Shown here: piece after piece, positions 833-13,446 of the stretch
How the letters are laid out: every line of letters begins with the position of its first letter
How positions within the stretch are numbered: the first letter of the stretch is position 1
Assembly (NCBI GenBank): GCA_027622275.1
Contig: JAQBZB010000064.1
Span: 1 to 34,908 of the forward strand
Reading direction: 5' to 3'
Source of the DNA: Planctomycetota bacterium
GTDB lineage: Bacteria > Planctomycetota > Planctomycetia > Pirellulales > Pirellulaceae
DNA: 34,908 bases
Position numbers and translations under genes: made by a program
Notes under the pieces: generated by a model
The model's database searches: none
The model's input: only the letters and a program-made list of their open reading frames with translations
Told to the model about the DNA's origin: nothing

Positions 833-1444
833 ATGTCAGAGGTAGATACGGTCACTGCTTGGCTGGACAGGCTCAAGGCAGACGATTCCGATGCCGCTGT
901 TGATCTTTGGCACCGCTATGTGGGTGAATTGATCCGTCTGGCCCGTAGCAAACTGGGACGGTCTCCGCGTCGAGCCGCCGATGAGGAAGACGTCGTCGTA
1001 TCCGCCTTCGATGCTTTCTTTCGAGGTGTCGAGGATGGGCGTTTTTCTCGATTGAATGACCGTGACGATCTCTGGCAAGTGCTTGTCATGCTTACCGAAC
1101 GGAAGGCCATCAACCAGATCCGCCGTGAACGTGCCGCCAAACGGGGTGATGGGCGTCTTCGTGGTGAATCGGCTCTTGCTGGCGCTCACGGCAGCAGCTA
1201 TCCGAACGGACTGGGTCAGGTTGCGGCAAACGAGCCCACTCCCGAATTCGCGGCGCAGTTCCGTGAACAGTTCGGACAGTTGCTAAACTGCCTTGACGAT
1301 GATTTACTTCGGCAGATCGCTGTCGGGAAGCTGGAGGGTTACACCAACACCGAGTTGGCCGAACGGCTCAACCTGAGCTTGAGGGCAGTTGAACGCAAAT
1401 TGAGCATCATTCGCCGCCGGTGGGAACGAGAATCCTCGCGATGA
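833..1444 (+). CDS. ECF-type RNA polymerase sigma factor, planctomycete kinase-associated group
   Basis: The product is 203 residues, normal for an ECF factor. Region 2 covers roughly residues 20-95, with the DEEDVVVSAFDAFF segment and a basic QIRRERAAKR stretch. Region 4 covers roughly 140-200 and holds the helix-turn-helix GYTNTELAERLNLSLRAVER. ATG 833 has GGAG at 823-826 (6 nt spacing); the upstream in-frame starts do not. The stop overlaps the start of the giant kinase gene in an ATGA, so the two are probably translationally coupled. In planctomycetes such factors are often paired with Ser/Thr kinases. The likely job is to redirect RNA polymerase in response to the neighbouring kinase/receptor, which is inferred from context. 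No anti-sigma gene of a known type is adjacent. Confidence 0.9.
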   Translation: MSEVDTVTAWLDRLKADDSDAAVDLWHRYVGELIRLARSKLGRSPRRAADEEDVVVSAFDAFFRGVEDGRFSRLNDRDDLWQVLVMLTERKAINQIRRERAAKRGDGRLRGESALAGAHGSSYPNGLGQVAANEPTPEFAAQFREQFGQLLNCLDDDLLRQIAVGKLEGYTNTELAERLNLSLRAVERKLSIIRRRWERESSR

Positions 1445-4400
1445 ATCAATCGCTGTCACGCTCTGAAGACAACCTGCCTCTTGAACTAGAGGAACAGATC
1501 GATCGGTTGTGCGACGACTTTGAAAAAGCATGGCGAGACGGGCAGCAATCTCGGATCGAAGACTACCTTACCAAGTTGGCTGATGTTCCCCGGACGATCG
1601 TGCTCTGGAGGTTGCTGGAAGTTGAGCTAGAGCTGCGTCGCAATGCGGGAGAGGCACCTACGCCGGAGGAGTATCACCAGCGTTTCCCTCACCAAGACGA
1701 AGTGATCAACGCCGCATTCGCCATGGTGGAACGTCACCAGCAGCGACAGGCACAATTGCACGATACGCAGTCTTTGGTCGGGGCGAACCCGCCGCAGACA
1801 GACGGACAGCCTGGAAAACCGGCCCCAGCAAAAGACGCGGCCCCCGTTCCCGATCAAATTGGCCGCTTCGAAATCCAACGCGTACTTGGTCAGGGCGGCT
1901 TTTGTGCCGTCTACCTGGCCCGCGACACGCAACTCGACCGACTGGTGGCCCTGAAGGTGCCTCGTGGCGAGAACTTCTCGACTGCGGCGGAACTGAACGA
2001 GTTCATTGAAGAAGCCCGCACCGCCGCCCAATTGAACCATCCCGGCATCGTCACGGTCCACGACGTGGGTCAGGACGCCGAGCAGGTGTTCATCGTTCAG
2101 GAATACATCCCAGGACAGGATCTGGCTGGCTATCTGGAATCGAATTCGCTGTCGGTGCAGCAGACCGCCGAATTGATGATCGCGGTGGCCGACGCGATGG
2201 CGTTCGCCCATCAAAAAGGGTTTGTGCATCGCGATCTCAAGCCCGGCAACATCCTGCTCGATGCTGACGCCAAGCCTCGCGTCGCCGACTTCGGCCTGGC
2301 AATTCACGAGAGCATCCAGGGGCGACGTCGGGGAGATAGATCCGGGACGCCGGTTTACATGTCGCCCGAGCAGGTACGCGGCGAGACGCACCGGCTGGAC
2401 GGACGCAGCGACATCTGGAGCCTGGGCGTCATTTTGTACGAGATGCTGGTGGGACGCCGACCGTTTCGCGGCGGGAAACTCTCGGAGTTGGTCGAGGAAA
2501 TCAAGCACCGCGAGCCCAAACCGCCTCGACAGATCAAGCCGGAACTCCCATCCGAACTGGAACGCATCTGTCTGAAGTGTCTCTCCAAGCGAATCACCGA
2601 CCGCTACTCGAATGCCGCTGACCTGGCGGAAGACTTGCGTCACTGGCTGCAAGAACGAGAAGAGAAAACCGCGACAGACCAGATCACGTCCAAGCATATA
2701 AAGATTGTCCCCAAAGGACTGCGTTCCTTTGACGCTCAAGACGCCGACTTCTTCCTCGAATTGCTGCCCGGCCCGCGAGACCGGGACGGGCTGCCCGAGA
2801 GCATCAGGTTTTGGAAGACCCGCATTGAAGAAACCGACGCCGACAGCACGTTTGCCGTAGGTTTGATCTACGGTCCTTCCGGTTGCGGCAAGTCGTCGTT
2901 GGTGAAGGCAGGCTTGCTCCCCAGGCTGGCCTCGCATGTGACGCCCATCTACATCGAGTCCACGCCTGCCGACACCGAGGTGCGGTTGCTCAAGGGACTC
3001 CGCAAACACGTCGCCAACATTCCGGAAGAGACTTCACTGCCCGAACTACTGAAAGGACTGCGGGAAGGAACGTGGGCGACTTCAGGCCGGAAGATTCTGA
3101 TCGTACTTGACCAGTTTGAGCAATGGCTGCACGTCAATCGCGGCCAGCAAGATCCACAATTGCTACAGGCTCTGCGGCACTGCGATGGCGGGAAAGTGCA
3201 ATGTGTGTTCCTTGTTCGGGACGACTTCTGGTTGGCAGCCAGTCGTTTCATGCAGGGACTGGAGATCCGACTAGTCGAGGCCGAGAACCAAGCTCTGGTT
3301 GACCTGTTCGACCCTCTACACGCCCGCAAGATCCTCGCCGAATTCGGGCAAGCCTTTGGACGCCTGCCGGAAAAACTTGGCGAACTGTCCGGCGAACAGA
3401 ATACGTTCCTGGACCGTGCCGTGGCAGGGTTATCCCAGGATGGCAAGGTCATTTGCGTGCGATTGGCGTTGTTTGCCGACATGATCAAGGGCAAGCCCTG
3501 GACCCCGGCTACTCTGAAAGGGGTGGGTGGCACGGCAGGGCTGGGCGTGACCTTCCTGGAGGAGACGTTCAGTGCCGCTACGGCACCACGCGAGCATCAA
3601 CTGCACCAGCAAGCCGCCCGTGCCGTACTCCGAGCCATGCTACCGGAGGCCGGGACAGACATTAAAGGCGGACGACAGTCCTACGAACAGCTGCTGGAAG
3701 CCTCGGGCTACGCTCAACGAGCGAAAGAGTTCGACAACCTGATCCGCATTTTGGACAACGAGCTTCGGCTGATCACCCCCACCGATCCGGAAGGCTCAAT
3801 TTCGGACTCTCAGGCTCTCGACTCTGGACTCTTGACTCTCGGCTCCTTCTTCCAACTGACTCACGATTATCTCGTGCCTTCGCTTCGCGAGTGGCTGGTC
3901 CGCAAACAAAAGGAAACGCGACGCGGTCGGGCCGAACTGCGGCTGGCCGAGCGGTCGGCATTGTGGAACGCCAAGCCTGAAAACCGGCATCTGCCTGCCT
4001 GGTGGGAGTATTTGAGTGTTGTCGTTCTCACCAGGCGGAAAAGTTGGACCCAAGCCCAGCGGAAGATGATGCGGAAGGCTGGCAGGTTTCACGGAGTGCG
4101 GGCTGCGCTCGGGCTCGCCACCGTTGCTCTGCTGATAATCGCTGGCGTCTCGCTGCAACAGCGGATCTCCGGTCAAAGTGAGCGAACTCGCACGGAAGGG
4201 CTTGTCGGCAGACTGCATGACGCCGACATCGGTCAGGTCGCGAACATTACAACGGCACTCTTGAAAGTTAAAGACCTCGCCGAACCGATGTTGCAGAAGC
4301 GGATTGCGAAAGCGGCGGTAGGCTCGCCTGAAAAACTCAACTTGTCGTTGGGCTTGCTGGCGAGTGATCCCCAGCAAGTCGAGTATCTCTATGACCAGCT

Positions 4401-7400
4401 GCTGCAGGCCGAAGCGGAAGCGTTTCCGGTGATTCGCGACTTCCTGACCGACCAGCGGGACCAATTGGTTCCCCAACTGTGGCAGGTGCTGGACAACCCG
4501 CAAGGCGATGCCGCAGGCAAGCAGTTGCGCGCTGCCGCCGCTCTGGCCACTTACGATCCGGCAAATCCAAAATGGCAAACCGTCCGCCAGCGGGCAGCTG
4601 CTGAACTCGTGGCGGTCAATCCGGCCTTTCTTGGCCCCTGGAAAGACGCGTTTCGTCCTATTGCCAAAGACCTCCTAGAACCCCTCGGGAAGATCTACAG
4701 CGACGACACTCAGGACGATCTGGCCCGCTCGCTGGCCACATCCTTGTTGGCCGACTATGCCCGCCAGGATGTCAAGCAACTGGCCAGCCTAGTGAGCATC
4801 GCCGATGAAAAACAGTTTGCCGTGCTCTACCCGGTCCTGAGCAAGCAAGATTCAGTGGCGGTGAAGGAACTCCAGTCGATCTTGCAACGAAAGACCGAAC
4901 CGACCTGGAACGATGCGGCTCTTGATCCCGCTTGGCAGCCCATCGATCCGTCGATGAAGAACGCCATCGAATCGGCAGAGGGGATTCTCGACGACCGGTT
5001 TGCTTTCTGCCAAACGATGCCATTGAAGCAGTGCGTCGAAACAACGGAATCGCTGCGGCAATCCGTCTACCGCCCCATCCGCTTCCGCCCCTATGCCATC
5101 GATGACGGAGTGCAAGTCGCCGCCGTCTGGACTCGCGACTCGCGAGACTGGCAGATGGCCCATGATCTGACCGCTGAACAGGTTCAAGCCAAAGACGAAG
5201 AGCTGCGGCAGCAAGGTCTGATTCCCATCGACGTTTCCGGCTACCTCGGTCGCGACGAAGACGGCAAACCCGCCAATCGCTACGCAGCGATCTGGGTCAA
5301 GTCCGGCGAAGAAGACCCTGAAGTCCGCGTGTATGCCGGTGTGCCAGCCAACAGCGAGCAATCACAGCTCGCCCAGCCCTTGGGTGCAGCAGGTTTCAAC
5401 CGTCTGACGTTACATGCCTTTTTTGGCCAGGACCGCGTGCAGTACCGCTCGGCGATCTGGTCGAAACGAAAAGATCAAGAACAATCGACATCGCAGGTTT
5501 TCTTTGGGATCGAGTCGCACTTCACCGGTGAAATCTATCCAGGGCTGCTGCTCACTGAACTGAACGTCTCTCGCAGTGCCGAGCCGCAAGACAGCCAGCA
5601 GCGATATGCGGAACAGTTGAAATCCCTGGAACCGCTACTTGCGGATCGAGCGGACGATGCCAACTTGCGAAAGTACATCGCCACAGCTCGTTTCCAACTG
5701 AAGCAGGACGAGCAAGCTCTGGAAGGCTTGAACTGGCTAATCGAGAAGCTGCCGAACGATTCGTCGTTGTATCAGTTTCGAGCGATTGTGCATGCCCGAG
5801 GCCAACGGGCGGAGGAAGCCAATCAGGACTTGGCCAGATTCACCGAGCTGAACAAAGACGCCAGCCAGCAGGCGTATCTGGATGCTGTCATCTCGGCTCA
5901 CTTGAGTGAAGACACCGAGGGGATGCAGCGATTAGAAGCGGCGATCAGCCAATCACCGGGCGACCTGGACATGCTTTACAACGGAGCCTGTGCCTACTCG
6001 CTGGCCTCGGGCGTTTTTACTGCCGAAGAAGTTGCCAAGTCGAAGGTCTACGCGGACCGGGCGAGTGCTTTGCTGCGAGACGCGATCGCCGCAGGCTACG
6101 ACAACTATGAGCACATGCAGCAGGACGTGGACCTCGATCCGCTACGGACACACCCTGGCTTCGCGGAGCTGATGGGTGCAGGCAAGCTGGATCGTCGTTA
6201 TGCGGCTGTGTGGAACGTGAGCACCGCGTTCGAGTCGACCGAGCTTCACGGCCTGGCACCGGACGAGCAACGGCAACGGTGCCGTGAATTGATCACAGCC
6301 GGTTATCGGCCGGCCGCGATGTCAGTCTCGACGGTGAAAGACAGTTCCACGCTGGTGACGGCCTCGGTCTGGCGTCGTCCTCTGGTTCCAGACGCAGCCA
6401 AGGAATCGCTGGCCAAACAACAAGCCAACGCGGCGGTGGCGTTGCTCCGCATGGACCAGGGCGATGCGGTCTGGCCGCTGTTGAAGCACTCGCCCGATCC
6501 GCGAACGCGAAGCTACCTGATCCATCGCTTGAGCCCGCTGGGGGCCACTCCGCAGGACATCATCGAGCGTCTGGAGGTCGAACCGGACGTCTCCACCCGT
6601 CGAGCCTTAATTCTGACGCTGGGCGAATTCGATGATCAGCAATTGCCGCCCGCAGAGCGAGAGCAACTCGCGGTCAAATTGCTGGAGACCTACGCCACCG
6701 ATCCCGATGCCGGGATGCACGCCGCATCAGAGTGGGTTCTGCGGCACTGGGGCCAGGATGCCCAGCTTAAAGAAAAAGACATCGAATTGGCGACCGGCAA
6801 GCTGGAAGGCGGTCGCCAGTGGTACGTGAACAAGCAAGGGCAAACGCTGGTGGTGATTCCGGGACCGGTCGAGTTTGTGATGGGGGGCTCACAAGACCAG
6901 ATGGACAGTACCCTGCACCGCAAGCGGATCGATCGCACGTTCGCCATTATGACGCACGAGGTCACCTTGGATCAGTTCCGGGCGTTTCAGAGAGACTACC
7001 CGTACATCAAAGCGCACGCCCCAGAGGGAAACTACCCTGCTAACCGATTGAATTGGTACCTTGCGGCGGAGTACTGCAACTGGCTCGGCAAGCAGGAGGA
7101 CATCCCGGAAGACGAGTGGTGTTATCTGCCCAATGACGACAATAACTACGCGGACGGGATGCGTGTTGCCCCCAACTTTTTGGAGCGGAGCGGCTACCGA
7201 CTGCCGACCGAAGCGGAGTGGGAGTACGCCTGCCGGGCCGGTTCTGTGACCAGTTTCCATTTCGGCGAAAACTCGGATCTGCTCTGGCAATATGCAAGTT
7301 ATGACGCCAACGACTCGCGGAATCGCGGGATGCTTCCAGTGGGGAGCCTCAAACCGAACGACCTGGGTTTGTTCGATATGACTGGCAATGCATTAGAATT

Positions 7401-7620
7401 GTGTCATGACATTTTGAAGTCATACCGCGTTTCGACGATGGGGCGTCCGAGCGAAGATTCGTCCGTCGGTTCGGAGGTCCGCGACACCGACGTCCGCACA
7501 TCGCGTGGTGGGGCGTTCTACCTTTGGCCCCACAATGCCCGGTCCTACAATCGCGACACCGCCAGGCCTGCCAGCAATATCACCTACCTTGGTATGCGTG
7601 CGGCGAGGACTTACCCCTGA
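1441..7620 (+). CDS. giant Ser/Thr kinase - STAND-like NTPase - solenoid - FGE/C-type-lectin-fold receptor; probable DGR target
   Basis: The product is 2059 residues. ATG 1441 overlaps the sigma factor stop. Residues 141-400 are a Hanks kinase: glycine loop GQGGFCAVYLA, Lys172, HRDLKPGN at 262-269, DFG at 283-285 and GTPVYMSPEQ. Residues 478-486 are a P-loop (GPSGCGKSS) with Walker B around ILIVLDQFEQW (Asp557), as in nSTAND1 NTPases. A single membrane helix lies near 890-907. Beyond it are HEAT-like repeats, two copies of a beta-rich module with the phrases RPIRFRPY and RPAAMSVS, and TPR-like helices (about 1390-1570). Residues 1795-2057 are a formylglycine-generating-enzyme fold (YRLPTEAEWEYACRAG, GNALELC, RGGAF). 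The last 40 residues contain no Cys, so formylglycine synthesis is unlikely and ligand binding is favoured. The kinase and NTPase should face the cytoplasm and the C-terminal part the outside. The last exon-like stretch looks like a DGR variable repeat. Confidence 0.88.
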   Translation: MNQSLSRSEDNLPLELEEQIDRLCDDFEKAWRDGQQSRIEDYLTKLADVPRTIVLWRLLEVELELRRNAGEAPTPEEYHQRFPHQDEVINAAFAMVERHQQRQAQLHDTQSLVGANPPQTDGQPGKPAPAKDAAPVPDQIGRFEIQRVLGQGGFCAVYLARDTQLDRLVALKVPRGENFSTAAELNEFIEEARTAAQLNHPGIVTVHDVGQDAEQVFIVQEYIPGQDLAGYLESNSLSVQQTAELMIAVADAMAFAHQKGFVHRDLKPGNILLDADAKPRVADFGLAIHESIQGRRRGDRSGTPVYMSPEQVRGETHRLDGRSDIWSLGVILYEMLVGRRPFRGGKLSELVEEIKHREPKPPRQIKPELPSELERICLKCLSKRITDRYSNAADLAEDLRHWLQEREEKTATDQITSKHIKIVPKGLRSFDAQDADFFLELLPGPRDRDGLPESIRFWKTRIEETDADSTFAVGLIYGPSGCGKSSLVKAGLLPRLASHVTPIYIESTPADTEVRLLKGLRKHVANIPEETSLPELLKGLREGTWATSGRKILIVLDQFEQWLHVNRGQQDPQLLQALRHCDGGKVQCVFLVRDDFWLAASRFMQGLEIRLVEAENQALVDLFDPLHARKILAEFGQAFGRLPEKLGELSGEQNTFLDRAVAGLSQDGKVICVRLALFADMIKGKPWTPATLKGVGGTAGLGVTFLEETFSAATAPREHQLHQQAARAVLRAMLPEAGTDIKGGRQSYEQLLEASGYAQRAKEFDNLIRILDNELRLITPTDPEGSISDSQALDSGLLTLGSFFQLTHDYLVPSLREWLVRKQKETRRGRAELRLAERSALWNAKPENRHLPAWWEYLSVVVLTRRKSWTQAQRKMMRKAGRFHGVRAALGLATVALLIIAGVSLQQRISGQSERTRTEGLVGRLHDADIGQVANITTALLKVKDLAEPMLQKRIAKAAVGSPEKLNLSLGLLASDPQQVEYLYDQLLQAEAEAFPVIRDFLTDQRDQLVPQLWQVLDNPQGDAAGKQLRAAAALATYDPANPKWQTVRQRAAAELVAVNPAFLGPWKDAFRPIAKDLLEPLGKIYSDDTQDDLARSLATSLLADYARQDVKQLASLVSIADEKQFAVLYPVLSKQDSVAVKELQSILQRKTEPTWNDAALDPAWQPIDPSMKNAIESAEGILDDRFAFCQTMPLKQCVETTESLRQSVYRPIRFRPYAIDDGVQVAAVWTRDSRDWQMAHDLTAEQVQAKDEELRQQGLIPIDVSGYLGRDEDGKPANRYAAIWVKSGEEDPEVRVYAGVPANSEQSQLAQPLGAAGFNRLTLHAFFGQDRVQYRSAIWSKRKDQEQSTSQVFFGIESHFTGEIYPGLLLTELNVSRSAEPQDSQQRYAEQLKSLEPLLADRADDANLRKYIATARFQLKQDEQALEGLNWLIEKLPNDSSLYQFRAIVHARGQRAEEANQDLARFTELNKDASQQAYLDAVISAHLSEDTEGMQRLEAAISQSPGDLDMLYNGACAYSLASGVFTAEEVAKSKVYADRASALLRDAIAAGYDNYEHMQQDVDLDPLRTHPGFAELMGAGKLDRRYAAVWNVSTAFESTELHGLAPDEQRQRCRELITAGYRPAAMSVSTVKDSSTLVTASVWRRPLVPDAAKESLAKQQANAAVALLRMDQGDAVWPLLKHSPDPRTRSYLIHRLSPLGATPQDIIERLEVEPDVSTRRALILTLGEFDDQQLPPAEREQLAVKLLETYATDPDAGMHAASEWVLRHWGQDAQLKEKDIELATGKLEGGRQWYVNKQGQTLVVIPGPVEFVMGGSQDQMDSTLHRKRIDRTFAIMTHEVTLDQFRAFQRDYPYIKAHAPEGNYPANRLNWYLAAEYCNWLGKQEDIPEDEWCYLPNDDNNYADGMRVAPNFLERSGYRLPTEAEWEYACRAGSVTSFHFGENSDLLWQYASYDANDSRNRGMLPVGSLKPNDLGLFDMTGNALELCHDILKSYRVSTMGRPSEDSSVGSEVRDTDVRTSRGGAFYLWPHNARSYNRDTARPASNITYLGMRAARTYP
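7516..7593 (+). other. candidate DGR variable repeat (VR) at the 3' end of the giant gene
   Basis: Of the 26 codons from TTC 7516 to GGT 7593, 23 end in C or T; the exceptions are TGG, CGG and AGG. The coded segment lies between RGGA and GMR near the C-terminus of an FGE/C-type-lectin fold, where DGR variable repeats normally sit. Adenine mutagenesis of AAC/AAT-type template codons changes positions 1 and 2 and leaves a pyrimidine third base, which is what is seen. No template repeat with A substitutions was found in the window, so this rests on codon pattern, position and the adjacent avd remnant. Confidence 0.6.
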
Positions 7621-7644
7621 TCCCCTTTACTGCTTTACCTCTTC

Positions 7645-7659
7645 GCCGCCGTTGGCGGC
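7645..7659. repeat. GC-rich hairpin just downstream of the candidate variable repeat
   Basis: GCCGCC (7645-7650) and GGCGGC (7654-7659) form a perfect 6-bp stem with a GTT loop, 25 nt after the stop codon of the giant gene. Known DGR targets often carry a short GC-rich hairpin or cruciform shortly after the variable repeat. No T-run follows, so it is not a convincing terminator. It could also be one of the many small intergenic palindromes seen in this genome. Confidence 0.45.
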
Positions 7660-7760
7660 TCGCGAAAAATATTGAGCCGATCGGGAATCTGGTAATCGAG
7701 CGAGGATGATGCACATTGCTTACCATGAGACCTCCATTTCGGAAGTCAAAAGGAGGCTTC

Positions 7761-7997
7761 ATGAAACGCAACGAAGAACTCGTAGTGATCACGAAGACCT
7801 ACGACTTGATCCTCTGGTCCTGCAACCCTACCAGCCGCTTTCCCCGCAACCACCGCTTCGTGTTGGGCGAACGGATCGAGCGTAATTTGTACGAGCTGCT
7901 GGAAACTCTGCTTCAAGAATCGCACCAAATACGAACTCCAGTTCGTGTTTGGAGTTCAGTTACGGAATGGGTGGGGACGACGTGTCTGACCGTTTGA
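7761..7997 (+). pseudogene. avd: truncated Avd-like four-helix-bundle protein (DGR accessory)
   Basis: The ATG at 7761 is preceded by a very strong ribosome-binding site (AAAAGGAGG, 7748-7756). Residues 1-52 match the start of Avd / 23S-rRNA-intervening-sequence-type four-helix-bundle proteins: ITKTYDLILW, then FPRNHRFVLGERIERNLYEL. Full Avd proteins are about 110-130 residues. Here homology stops in helix 2 and a 24-residue unrelated tail ends the frame, giving 78 residues. Near the break lies ACGAACT-CC-AGTTCGT (7931-7946), overlapping a second inverted repeat, GAACTCC/GGAGTTC (7933-7939 and 7951-7957). The remainder of avd, and the reverse transcriptase normally found with it, are missing; the convergent ygfZ gene begins at once. 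The family call comes from sequence memory; the loss by deletion is inference. Confidence 0.65.
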
Positions 7998-8009
7998 CTC
8001 TTTCAAGAA

Positions 8010-8978
8010 TCATTCAGTTGGCAATACAACTACTTCGGCATTACCAAACGTCGAGGCAATTACCGTTCCCGGCTTGTCACTGCCGCGGCGGACGAAAGCG
8101 AGTGCCAGGGGAGCATTGAGCCGTGGCGAGAAGCAAGACGATGTGATCTGCGCCAGTTGCTTGCCGTCGGCCGTGATCTTCGTGCCCGCGGGCGGAACGG
8201 TTTCGCAGGAGAACTTGAGTCCTGCCAGTCGGCGATTGACGTGACCCAAGGCGTCGATGCGGGCGACGGTCTCCTGGCCGAGATAGCAGCCTTTCGTGAA
8301 GCTGATTGCAAACGCGTCGCGGGCGATTTCCTGCGGCAAGTTGTCGATCGTTACGTCTTGACCGTAAACCGGAACGCCCATTTCAATGCGAGCCACATTG
8401 ACAGCCTCGCAACTGCATTCGACGGCGTCGAAGTTACGCAGCCACGCGATCAGCGCTGCAACTTGCGACAGATCGCAGCAGACAAGAAAGCATTCGGAGG
8501 ATGCGTAGGGCAGTCGGCGCAGTTGGACTTGAATGTCGCCGATTGCTCTTTCGGTGATCCCGATTCGCTGCGCGGGAATCGAGCCGGCGAACTGCGATTC
8601 GAACAGACTTGTCGCCCGCGAGCCGCTGACCAAGACTTCGCCCCAGTCGTGCGAACGATCGACGAGCGTGACGTCTTCGCGGATGATGTAACGATCGAGA
8701 GCCGGGATCATCTCGGCGGCAAGTCCGGGATTGGTGTCGATGATCAGCGACTGCTGCGTGCAGAACACATTCACATAGCCCGTCGTCTTGCCCTGGACAT
8801 TGGTCAGGAACGCTTCACAGCCGTCACCGGGTGCAAGCCGCTTGATATCGTTGGTACATAAGCCATGCAGCACCTTGGCGCGGTCCGCGCCAGTCAGTTC
8901 GATCTGCGCGCGGCCGCTCAGGTCGCAAAAGCCGATGCCATCGCACAGGGCGCGGCACTGTAAAGCAATATCTGACAT
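8010..8978 (-). CDS. ygfZ: YgfZ/GcvT-like folate-binding protein
   Basis: The product is 322 residues. The signature KGCYLGQETVARI near residues 229-241 identifies the YgfZ family, which has a fold like the T-protein of glycine cleavage and binds tetrahydrofolate. Members support repair or assembly of some Fe-S enzymes and tRNA modification (MiaB) in E. coli. The conserved Cys of the signature is present. The N-terminal part (AKVLHGLCTNDIK, EAFLTNVQGK) also fits. It is the downstream gene of a two-gene minus-strand unit with the LarA-like gene, 22 nt apart, and converges on the avd remnant. It is cytoplasmic. The whole-family match is secure; the exact client in this organism is unknown. Confidence 0.9.
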   Translation of the reverse strand: MSDIALQCRALCDGIGFCDLSGRAQIELTGADRAKVLHGLCTNDIKRLAPGDGCEAFLTNVQGKTTGYVNVFCTQQSLIIDTNPGLAAEMIPALDRYIIREDVTLVDRSHDWGEVLVSGSRATSLFESQFAGSIPAQRIGITERAIGDIQVQLRRLPYASSECFLVCCDLSQVAALIAWLRNFDAVECSCEAVNVARIEMGVPVYGQDVTIDNLPQEIARDAFAISFTKGCYLGQETVARIDALGHVNRRLAGLKFSCETVPPAGTKITADGKQLAQITSSCFSPRLNAPLALAFVRRGSDKPGTVIASTFGNAEVVVLPTE

Positions 8979-9000: not shown

Positions 9001-10224
9001 TCATTCCGCCGGCGTGGCCAGAAACGCGTGCTGCGCGTTGCCGAGCAGGATGCAGGAGTCGAATTGCCGACTGAGCCGTTCCAGCTGTTCGGTACTGCCG
9101 ACGTGACCGACGCCAAGGTCTTCGACCGACGCTTCGTCCAAATCGCTCAACAAGAACACCTGGACTCGCTCCAATGCTTCCGCCAGCAGAGCGGCCGGGG
9201 TCGCGTCGACCGAGCGCTCGCGCCGCAGCTCGTGTAACAACGAATCGTAGTCTCGCATCCCCATCAGCCGTTGCAAGGCCGGTCCTGGACGGCAACGCAA
9301 GCTCGAACAGATAACGATTGCACCGCCGTCGTTCACCGCTTGCGAAGCAGCGAACAACGCCCGGCCAAAGTTCTCCCACGTCTGCTGGTCCGCGCCCCCT
9401 TCGATGGCAGCCACGACGAGGTTCGCGCGTTGCGCGGGCTGGTGGAACCAAGCGGCAGTACACAGCTCCTGGCCGCGTTTTGCCACCGCCTGCGAATCTC
9501 CGGCGAGCACGTGCAACAACGTGTTTCCAGCACCCGGCGCCACTTGGATCGTGAATTGAACGCCCAAGGCCCAGGCCGCTTCTTCCGCCTCCTCGCACCG
9601 TCGACGGCGCAGTGCCGACCAATCGCTTGAACTTGGCGCGCGATACCGCTTTTGCGTCGCGTCGTCGGAAAAAGTTGGATACAAGCCGCCGTGAACACCT
9701 GCGTAGCCGAGTGCCTGATCCAAGCGCAACGTGCTGATCGGCAAGACAACATCCGCGTTGCCGAGCGTGCGATTGAAGTAAATCGGGTTTCCTTCCTTCG
9801 AGGCGGCCAGATACGACAGCGATTCGCGGTCGTTGGGATCGTGGTGGCTGACCGTAATCGCGTTGCGTAGCGATTCCGGCAGCGCGGCCAGCGGATCTTG
9901 ATGCGATTCGTCGGCCCCCACCGCCAAGACGACTTCTAAATCGCTTGGCCGGGCACTGCCTTCGACTAGCGCGTGGATGACTCCCGCGACGACGGCCGGC
10001 ATCTGGGGCACTCCGCGATCGACCGCCAGTACGACGCGATCGCCAGGAACCGTCGCATCCTGAAGTCGCGGAAACTCTAGCGGTGCCGAGACCGCGGCGG
10101 CAACTGCGGCGGCGGGATCGTCGAGCGGAACGCCGCGCGGCGTTGAAAAATCGACGAGAACCGAGTTCGCGGGAACATCGATTTGCAATGTCCCCGAGTC
10201 TCCATATTTCAGCTCGACAGCCAT
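9001..10224 (-). CDS. LarA-like (lactate racemase domain, DUF2088) protein
   Basis: The product is 407 residues, close to the LarA length of about 420. The N-terminal domain has the GDRVVLAVDRGVPQMP segment, corresponding to the catalytic-domain strand of LarA, and ITVSHHDPND, corresponding to the His region. YAGVHGGLYPTFSDDAT corresponds to the second His loop. LarA uses a nickel-pincer cofactor to racemise 2-hydroxy acids. Here the pincer-attaching Lys region is not clearly conserved, and no larB/C/E genes are adjacent, so another 2-hydroxy-acid epimerase or a cofactor-free relative is possible. ATG 10224 has a GGAAGG-type site. The gene precedes ygfZ in the same unit. Confidence 0.75.
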   Translation of the reverse strand: MAVELKYGDSGTLQIDVPANSVLVDFSTPRGVPLDDPAAAVAAAVSAPLEFPRLQDATVPGDRVVLAVDRGVPQMPAVVAGVIHALVEGSARPSDLEVVLAVGADESHQDPLAALPESLRNAITVSHHDPNDRESLSYLAASKEGNPIYFNRTLGNADVVLPISTLRLDQALGYAGVHGGLYPTFSDDATQKRYRAPSSSDWSALRRRRCEEAEEAAWALGVQFTIQVAPGAGNTLLHVLAGDSQAVAKRGQELCTAAWFHQPAQRANLVVAAIEGGADQQTWENFGRALFAASQAVNDGGAIVICSSLRCRPGPALQRLMGMRDYDSLLHELRRERSVDATPAALLAEALERVQVFLLSDLDEASVEDLGVGHVGSTEQLERLSRQFDSCILLGNAQHAFLATPAE

Positions 10225-12300: not shown

Positions 12301-12741
12301 CTGCCTGCCCCTTAGGTAGAAATGAACTGTGTTGCGAAATCAGATTGTTATCTTGGCGGACAGCGTTCGCTTGAATGGTCGCGGAATCGCGATCGACGAC
12401 ACTCTGCCTCCAATAACAAACATAGGTCAAAATCCGTCCGTGAGTCGGAATTGCCAGGCCGTTTCGCGTGTAGGCTGGTTTCTTCGAAGAGCAATCCGCA
12501 CATACCTCCTAAACGTCAGAGTTATTTTGGGAAACCCAGAACAACACAGCCGGTTAGTAAAGTTAGGGTAGATGTATTGACGATGAGGACATGGATAATT
12601 CAGCAAGCAGTTTGCTGAGCCATTGGCCAGTTCTGTGTCTAACGCAGGTGCCGTCAAACGACATCTGATGCAGGGGCAGGCAGCAGGGTGAATGGTCACG
12701 TCCAGTTGTTAGCGGTATTCCCGGAATTAGGAGCCCTCCCC
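12301..12741. other. intergenic stretch without a recognisable gene
   Basis: This is the divergent region between the HPt gene and the Cys-repeat protein. Several short open frames cross it on both strands, but none has a plausible ribosome-binding site or recognisable protein. AGGAG at 12729-12733 is the ribosome-binding site of the downstream gene. Any promoters for both genes must lie here; I could not place them with confidence. Confidence 0.5.
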
Positions 12742-13446
12742 ATGAGATGTCGTACAATTGTGCCCGCGTTGCTAGCGGCTGGCCTGTTCTGTTTGGCCAG
12801 CGCCAACGCCAACGCTTTCGAGCTTTTCGATCGCGTGATGTTGAATCTTGGTGGCGATTCTGCTGCCATGCAAAGAGGTGATTGCGATGCTTGCCAGAAG
12901 GGCGGAGCAGCGCAAAAGGGTGGTTGTGGTGCTCACCAGAAGGGCGGCAAAGATGCGGCTCAGAAGGGTGGCTGCGATGGCAAGGGTGACGCCTGCCAAA
13001 AGGGTGGACACAGCTTGTTCAACCGTGGTGCCTGCCAGAAGGGTGGCTGTGATGCCGCTCAAAAGGGTGATGCGTGCCAGAAGGGTGATGCCTGCCAAAA
13101 GGGTGGCAAGGGTGACGCCTGCCAAAAGGGTGGACACAGTCTGTTCAACCGTGGTGCCTGCCAGAAGGGCGGCTGCGATGCTGCTCAGAAGGGTGACGCT
13201 TGTCAAAAGGGAAACTGTGGTGCTGCTCAGAAGGATGCCGCACAGAAGGGTGCCGCTCAGAAGGGTTGCGACAGCTGCTCGAAGGGTGGACATCACCGCG
13301 CCTCGCTGTTCACTGGCTTAATGAGCCGCGGCAGCTGCGATTGCGGCGGCAAGGGTGACGCCTGCCAGAAGGGCGACGCCTGCCAAAAGGGTGCCGCATG
13401 TCAGAAGGGCGACGCTTCCCAAAAGGGTGGCGTCTCACAGAAGTAA
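12742..13446 (+). CDS. secreted Cys/Lys/Gly repeat protein (xCQKG repeats)
   Basis: The product is 234 residues. ATG 12742 has AGGAG 8 nt upstream. Residues 1-25 are a signal peptide ending in SANANA. After a short linker the protein consists of hexapeptide-like units (A/D)(C/A)QKG(G/D): I count 19 QKG triplets and 21 Cys. A 42-residue block containing HSLFNRGACQKGGCD occurs twice. High Lys and Gly, alternating Cys and a few His suggest an exported, disulfide-linked or metal-binding structural protein. Planctomycete cell envelopes are rich in Cys proteins, but assigning it there is inference. It has no known catalytic domain. A strong intrinsic terminator follows, so it is probably transcribed alone. 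Confidence 0.85.
   Translation: MRCRTIVPALLAAGLFCLASANANAFELFDRVMLNLGGDSAAMQRGDCDACQKGGAAQKGGCGAHQKGGKDAAQKGGCDGKGDACQKGGHSLFNRGACQKGGCDAAQKGDACQKGDACQKGGKGDACQKGGHSLFNRGACQKGGCDAAQKGDACQKGNCGAAQKDAAQKGAAQKGCDSCSKGGHHRASLFTGLMSRGSCDCGGKGDACQKGDACQKGAACQKGDASQKGGVSQK
12985..13212 (+). repeat. 126-bp tandem repeat inside the Cys-repeat gene
   Basis: The segment starting GGTGACGCCTGCC at 12985 recurs at 13111 with a period of 126 bp (42 codons). Differences between the copies are nearly all at third codon positions (for example GGTGGCTGTGAT against GGCGGCTGCGAT), so the protein is preserved while the DNA drifts. Confidence 0.85.

Follow-up and report, generated by a model that had tools for sequence, protein, structure and literature searches.

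A probable former DGR target in a planctomycete: a kinase and STAND receptor gene followed by a remnant of avd

Several described DGR systems resemble the locus studied here; they are cited from the passages of each article that were available to us. The DGR targets of Thiohalocapsa PB-PSB1 include kinase, nSTAND1 and NACHT domains as well as lectin folds at the C-terminus, and some of the loci are incomplete (PMC10907252). Some of these targets were explained by trans action, and diversification was seen in natural populations (PMC10907252). The remote DGR targets of cyanobacteria combine a Ser/Thr kinase with a C-terminal variable CLec domain, and 76 were tied to a template in the same genome (PMC7517822). 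In the BPP-1 DGR, a GC-rich inverted repeat found just behind the variable repeat (VR) and the stop codon is required for efficient homing (PMC3240598). Conflict systems with DGR-linked FGE domains have already been described as well (PMC7159879).

The window, that is, the whole stretch of 34,908 nucleotides which we have analyzed, is the entire contig C257 of a planctomycete genome (G000, called here the own genome; 9.78 Mb in 555 contigs, 96.2% complete). It contains a receptor gene which is an orphaned addition to the kinase/nSTAND1/lectin-fold DGR targets already described. As far as the cited passages go, the kinds of domains and the incomplete locus are like those of Thiohalocapsa PB-PSB1, but the window belongs to another phylum, has no fitting template and is known from the assembly alone. 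A kinase, a variable domain and the lack of an adjacent reverse transcriptase (RT) are shared with the cyanobacterial targets described in the passages cited. Unlike these, the window has no fitting template, a STAND NTPase is placed between the kinase and the FGE domain, and a stub of avd marks the loss. The window also has a hairpin behind VR and stop codon, with a stem of 6 bp and a loop of 3 nt; the BPP-1 hairpin, as given in the passages cited, has 8 bp and a GRNA loop. Its function in the window is putative. The first-listed homologue of the receptor in GTDB contigs is L155, from the Planctomycetaceae MAG AS06rmzACSIP_219 (JAAYAY010000354.1). Domain order, the 18-nt IMH and the hairpin after the stop codon are common to both loci, but only L155 retains avd, RT and template. 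The features of the window, as read from its sequence, are the following:

707-1444, + strand: ECF sigma factor gene, directly upstream of the receptor (PF07638, E 3.7e-37)
1444-7620, + strand: receptor gene, intact frame of 2058 codons, one per residue; the ORF opens at 1420
about 1867-2613, + strand: Hanks-type kinase domain of the receptor
2716-3267, + strand: nSTAND1 NTPase domain of the receptor
within 1444-7620, + strand: BTRD1 repeat of the receptor
6844-7608, + strand: FGE-sulfatase domain of the receptor (PF03781, E 1.1e-33, residues 1801-2055)
7504-7599, + strand: variable repeat (VR) of 32 codons, the first encoding RGG and the last GMR
7600-7617, + strand: VR-type IMH, GCGGCGAGGACTTACCCC, with all 18 bases identical to the IMH of the L155 target
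7625-7668, + strand: post-VR element, a pyrimidine-rich tract and a GC hairpin (stem 7645-7650 / 7654-7659)
7761-7925, + strand: avd stub, the first ~56 of ~122 residues, with a start codon and AGGAGG upstream; unrelated sequence follows
7926-8009, no strand: presumed deletion scar; the 3' part of avd, RT and template repeat (TR) are missing before the next gene
8010-8978, - strand: unrelated gene for a GCV_T-type folate-binding protein, 84 bases past the avd stub, which bounds the presumed deletion

An earlier note on this DNA, made from its letters alone, placed an FGE fold at the C-terminus of the receptor. This is confirmed by the PF03781 match listed above, which reaches the C-terminus, and the 3'-terminal VR lies inside the fold. 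The top sequence match of this domain in the PDB is TvpA (2y3c), a DGR variable protein (E 1.8e-12). The same note called the combination of kinase, STAND NTPase and ECF sigma factor unusual, for which we find no support: the receptors of contigs C425 and C486 in the same genome are likewise preceded by a sigma factor gene. Our search returned 78 loci bearing relatives, nearly all of them with planctomycete record titles, and in these loci at least 33 long open frames end in an FGE-type domain. Of 34 PADLOC matches to the receptor, the 25 listed concern only its kinase part and do not show a defence role. No close orthologue of the receptor is found in the 60 genomes searched, its own included; the best match has 47% identity, in the FGE domain. 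The 78 GTDB-contig loci, from which records of the own genome are perhaps omitted, do not contain a close orthologue for dN/dS or for a comparison of strains.

The avd remnant proposed in the earlier note is real, and it is found farther downstream than the segment to which that note referred, at 7761-7925. It matches NF033474 (DivGenRetAVD) with E 1.9e-10 over positions 1-48 of the 104 of the model, below its cut-off, and bAvd PF22296 with E 7.1e-6, also below cut-off. The match to PHROG 3206 ("Avd protein of DGR") has E 3.3e-8. With residues 3-56 of the intact Avd which C425 encodes in the same genome, the stub shares 52% identity. Neither an RT nor an intact avd is present beside the target: the stub stands alone and is followed by the GCV_T-type gene, which we take to be YgfZ-like. 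An order of the ancestral type, target-avd-RT-TR, is observed in C425 and L155. Just past the stub, at 7931-7957, a short imperfect inverted repeat, ACGAACTCCAGTTCGTGTTTGGAGTTC, can be seen by eye. It may be the mark of a deletion junction or a small mobile element.

L155 matches the receptor over residues 16-2058, with 48% identity in the best segment, and the kinase-nSTAND1-FGE architecture is common to both. It is an intact DGR target. Its VR and TR have 0 mismatches at 66 non-A sites and differ at 16 of 30 A sites, and its receptor is followed by hairpin, avd, RT and template. At a threshold of E 1e-2, avd is found in four of the 78 loci (L155, L159, L208 and L232) and RT in three (L155, L208 and L232). 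In L159, from a Fuerstiella MAG (9352-9900), a receptor of the same family keeps most of avd, and there is no RT within the stretch examined. This is likely a second case of RT loss.

The IMH of the window, at the 3' end of its VR, reads GAGGACT, as in VRs, while TRs read GAGCACT. All nine VR IMHs compared (window, C2, C425, C291 twice, G184, L155, G026 C295 and G026 C408) read GAGGACT or GAGAACT, with CAGAACT in C291. The six TR IMHs (C425, C291, G184, L155, G026 and G158; C340 and C223 were left out) read GAGCACT, with CAGCACT in C291.

Elements homologous to the post-VR element of the window are found behind the verified VRs of C425, C291a and C291b and behind the orphan VR of C2. The element is absent behind seven other FGE ends which we have examined (C210, C486, two on C228, C35, C5 and C87); unrelated inverted repeats are present within 140 bases behind C210, one C228 end, C35 and C87. 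It is not universal, since the verified DGR of C340 has none. The hairpin downstream of the window VR folds with a z of -2.15, and 9 of 200 shuffled sequences fold at least as well. A covariance model was trained on five sites, including the window and C2, so that its recovery of sites in the own genome is not independent: at E 0.1 it finds there just the five training sites (150 of 3818 first-look candidates were scored). When 199 genomes of the family were scanned under stricter filters at E 1e-4, the model gave six further places, spread over four genomes besides the own one. Upstream of each there is an FGE-like match (E 7e-61 to about 1e-3), and four have avd or RT in the stretch. The avd gene lies behind the places in G085 C128, G061 and G215, and RT is found in G085 C99, G061 and G215, that of G085 C99 being more than 3 kb away on the opposite side. 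A C425-like RT is present in 20 of the 199 genomes, and all five genomes which bear the element, the own genome included, are among these 20 (P about 6e-6, assuming independent genomes). Across 79 sources, at E 0.1, the model reports two places, G026 C408 and L232. The L155 hairpin is not reported at E 0.1; it has a different stem and was seen by eye and with a simple pattern test.

The earlier note had claimed a DGR VR whose RT is missing. The post-VR hairpin, the VR-type IMH and the full-length homologue with an intact DGR, none of which that note had drawn on, support this claim, and because of them we consider that the receptor is most probably a former DGR target: avd, RT and TR would have been deleted, leaving the tip frozen beside a landing site which has been kept. 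The ancestral order would have been receptor, hairpin, avd, RT and template. In copying the template, the RT would have introduced random changes at adenines; the resulting cDNA would have taken the place of the final ~100 bp of the receptor gene, with IMH and hairpin defining the site. The ligand-facing tip of the FGE (C-type-lectin) domain would thereby have been rewritten. One deletion may then have taken avd past codon ~56 together with RT and template. The receptor frame stayed intact, so the last tip would be inherited as ordinary fixed sequence, with IMH and hairpin remaining behind it. The FGE tip would act as a ligand sensor whose signal is relayed by the STAND and kinase domains. Hairpin, IMH and avd stub allow DGR targets to be recognized after the loss of RT and template.

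The first alternative is that diversification of the receptor continues in trans, with RT and template located elsewhere in the genome, in an unassembled or unread part. Two points favour trans action: the genome has four DGR-type RTs, and the window retains an intact IMH and hairpin. An RVT_1 search of the own genome gives 16 matches on 14 contigs, none of them on the contig of the receptor. The places were read on 13 of the 14 contigs; the C343 match, of 225 nt and below cut-off, was left out. Four RT frames contain the DGR-type motif [LIVMF]GxxxSQ: C425, C291 (partial), C340 and C223. The pattern search also flagged C486, which is a receptor and not an RT, and five ORFs with QGxxxSP, which were read as not being of DGR type. 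An A-specific VR/TR pattern is seen in C425, in C340 and for two targets in C291. Between the RGG codons and the IMH, VR and TR have 0 non-A mismatches in C291, two in C425 and 0 in C340, where the comparison extends to the end of similarity rather than to the IMH.

None of these DGRs has a template which fits the window VR. A BLAST search with positions 7480-7640 against the own genome finds no template: the matches beyond the window itself are C2 (37 bases, 95%) and eight others at E 0.7 or worse. As a control, a local BLAST was simulated with queries of the same size, in a genome-sized setting which contained short template stretches only. The template was recovered in all six verified pairs (C425, C291a, C291b, C340, G184 and L155), at E 1.6e-30 or better. 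When the first 96 bases of the VR are compared with the templates of the own genome, the non-A mismatches are 26/69 for C425, 31/68 for C291, 36/74 for C340 and 36/69 for C223. The templates from outside do not fit either: 22/67 for G158, 23/68 for G184, 24/66 for G026 and 24/66 for L155. With the L155 template as query, the own genome gives matches at E below 1e-4 in C28, C425, C291 and C223. The one in C28 (at 9322, 85% over 134 bases) was considered as the missing template and rejected: here the end of a receptor is joined to template sequence. Taken as a template, it has 28/73 non-A mismatches with the window VR and 23/73 with that of C2. The top matches of a coarse scan, at contig ends, were taken as A-rich stretches and set aside.

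The search for a template and a DGR-type RT which the earlier note proposed has thus found RTs of this type, four of them elsewhere in the genome, and no fitting template. That note regarded the lack of an adenine-biased template as half of what would speak against its reading, and this half is what we find in the assembly. No template identical to the VR at non-A sites was found in it, and the VR does not behave as a remote target of any template found in the own genome. Since the assembly is 96.2% complete and divided in 555 contigs, a template could sit in a gap.

A pair of contigs in a relative, G184, also speaks for trans action. Contig C36 (L102, 3744-3960) has an orphan receptor, behind which there are just the hairpin and about ten codons of avd. 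Its VR agrees with the template of contig C330 (L140, 1-1600) at 68 of 68 non-A sites, and 17 of 28 A sites are changed. C330 begins inside a stretch of ~70 bases which is identical to C36, and both are contigs of a draft assembly. In its sequences, the pair has the pattern of a target served in trans, and it provides a direct test case for trans action in this group. Because this receptor has a shorter stub and still matches a distant template, an avd stub alone does not mean that a target is dead. In the window, on the other hand, the four templates of the own genome misfit, BLAST yields no further one, and the template-like end of C28 misfits as well. We regard diversification in trans as unlikely for this receptor. 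Where the earlier note left a choice between an RT which was lost and one acting in trans, loss is favoured, no template in the assembly fitting the VR; the trans pattern is seen solely in G184.

The assembly might also represent a deleted allele, other cells of the population keeping an intact DGR at this place. A single deletion would explain the state without RT, and in Thiohalocapsa PB-PSB1 long reads showed such variants at two loci, DGR 3 and DGR 7, according to the passages available to us (PMC10907252). The contig does not, however, present any sign of a mixed population, and we consider a structural variant of this kind improbable.

The reading of the receptor as a former DGR target may also be examined in the codons of the VR. 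The earlier note reported that 23 of 26 consecutive codons end in a pyrimidine, and the count is correct, starting at 7516. The receptor gene (2059 codons, stop included) has 2034 windows of this size, and the count is the maximum among them; over the whole gene, the share of pyrimidine-ending codons is 50.1%. When the codons are shuffled, 64 of 2000 shuffles attain 23 somewhere in the gene. Given the amino acids, the expectation is 16.0 and 17.5 of 26 in two overlapping windows, versus 22 observed. By itself, the codon bias is modestly unusual and constitutes weak evidence.

The positions which are AAY in templates give a second comparison. Each of the six templates compared has AAY at the same eight codons, and the window VR has a pyrimidine at the end of all eight. 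At the AAY positions of the L155 template, 12 of 14 codons of the VR end in a pyrimidine, the exceptions being TGG and AGG. The VRs of C425, C291a, C291b, G184 C36 and L155 also score 8/8; the eight codons were derived in part from the C425, C291, G184 and L155 templates, so the scores of those VRs are partly built in, while that of the window is not. C2 and G085 C405 score 7/8. We have compared 18 FGE places besides the window, filtered by RGG[SAGC][FWYC], a G at codon 30 and an R at codon 32. Seven are out of register: L074, L075, L077, L078, L079, L081 (which is G026 C408) and L082. The other 11, receptors without the element among the nearest FGE matches (C210, C486, L067-L073, L076 and L080), have scores of 2 to 7, and none attains 8. 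A score of 8/8 alone is not diagnostic, because other FGE genes without the element attain it, for example three on C228. That the tip was never a DGR target, with the pyrimidine bias and the avd-like stub as chance neighbours, is very improbable: in many planctomycete FGE ends with no DGR seen nearby the same loop positions do vary, and 64 of the 2000 shuffles attain the bias, but hairpin, VR-type IMH and avd stub are found together behind the VR in the correct order, and the full-length homologue L155 carries a complete DGR.

The own genome, with its four DGR-type RTs, also contains detached targets: the window, C2 and C28. In C28 (L241, 9322-9561), a receptor frame has CHAT, DUF4062, NACHT and FGE domains, and its VR starts like a target and continues as a template, RNNNNPDNRNDN. 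Past the VR there is a TR-type IMH, followed by ~180 bases which resemble the 3' flank of the L155 template (80% over 317 bases overall). No avd or RT is found on C28 with a match better than E 0.7. The simplest reading would be a recombination between VR and TR which deleted hairpin, avd and RT. We have met no mention of such a recombination in the parts of the literature covered by our search, which is no proof of absence.

C2 (L051, 8216-8382) has a second orphan VR, with a hairpin of the window type and a similar IMH. Its gene looks like a decayed NTPase-FGE gene: a stretch of 148 codons is open, and other parts are seemingly in other frames. No template fits its VR among those compared, the best being that of G026, with 19/66 mismatches. 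C228 (L053) has three FGE ends in tandem, at 3967, 5086 and 6203; as would be expected of DGR VRs, most of their differences fall on the first and second positions of codons. Neither of the two ends examined is followed by the post-VR element, and a search with one end as query gives no template.

In G026, the DGR of contig C295 (L142, 1100-3000) has RT and template; its local target seems to be cut off inside the VR, and its avd appears to contain an in-frame TAG. In contig C408 of the same genome (L153, 1447-1498), an FGE receptor has the element and a VR-type IMH, and no avd has been found adjoining it. An RT stub suspected behind the hairpin of C408 was dropped, since tblastn at E 1e-3 found none.

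It is conceivable, as a tentative generalization, that in these planctomycetes receptors made by DGRs are repeatedly cut loose and fixed, so that the genome accumulates frozen receptors which were randomised in the past. This would cover both the loss of avd, RT and TR (the window, probably L159, and G184 C36) and VR-TR recombination with removal of all that lies between (C28). Some of these receptors retain IMH and hairpin, and any DGR with a fitting template could reopen them. If this is true, immune-like sensors would be diversified, then fixed and possibly diversified again, in a cycle. Were fixation to follow diversification, DGRs would make lasting receptor repertoires and not solely ongoing variation.

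Elsewhere in the window, at 12688-13446, a small ORF contains many CQKGG/AAQKGG repeats and codes for a low-complexity protein.
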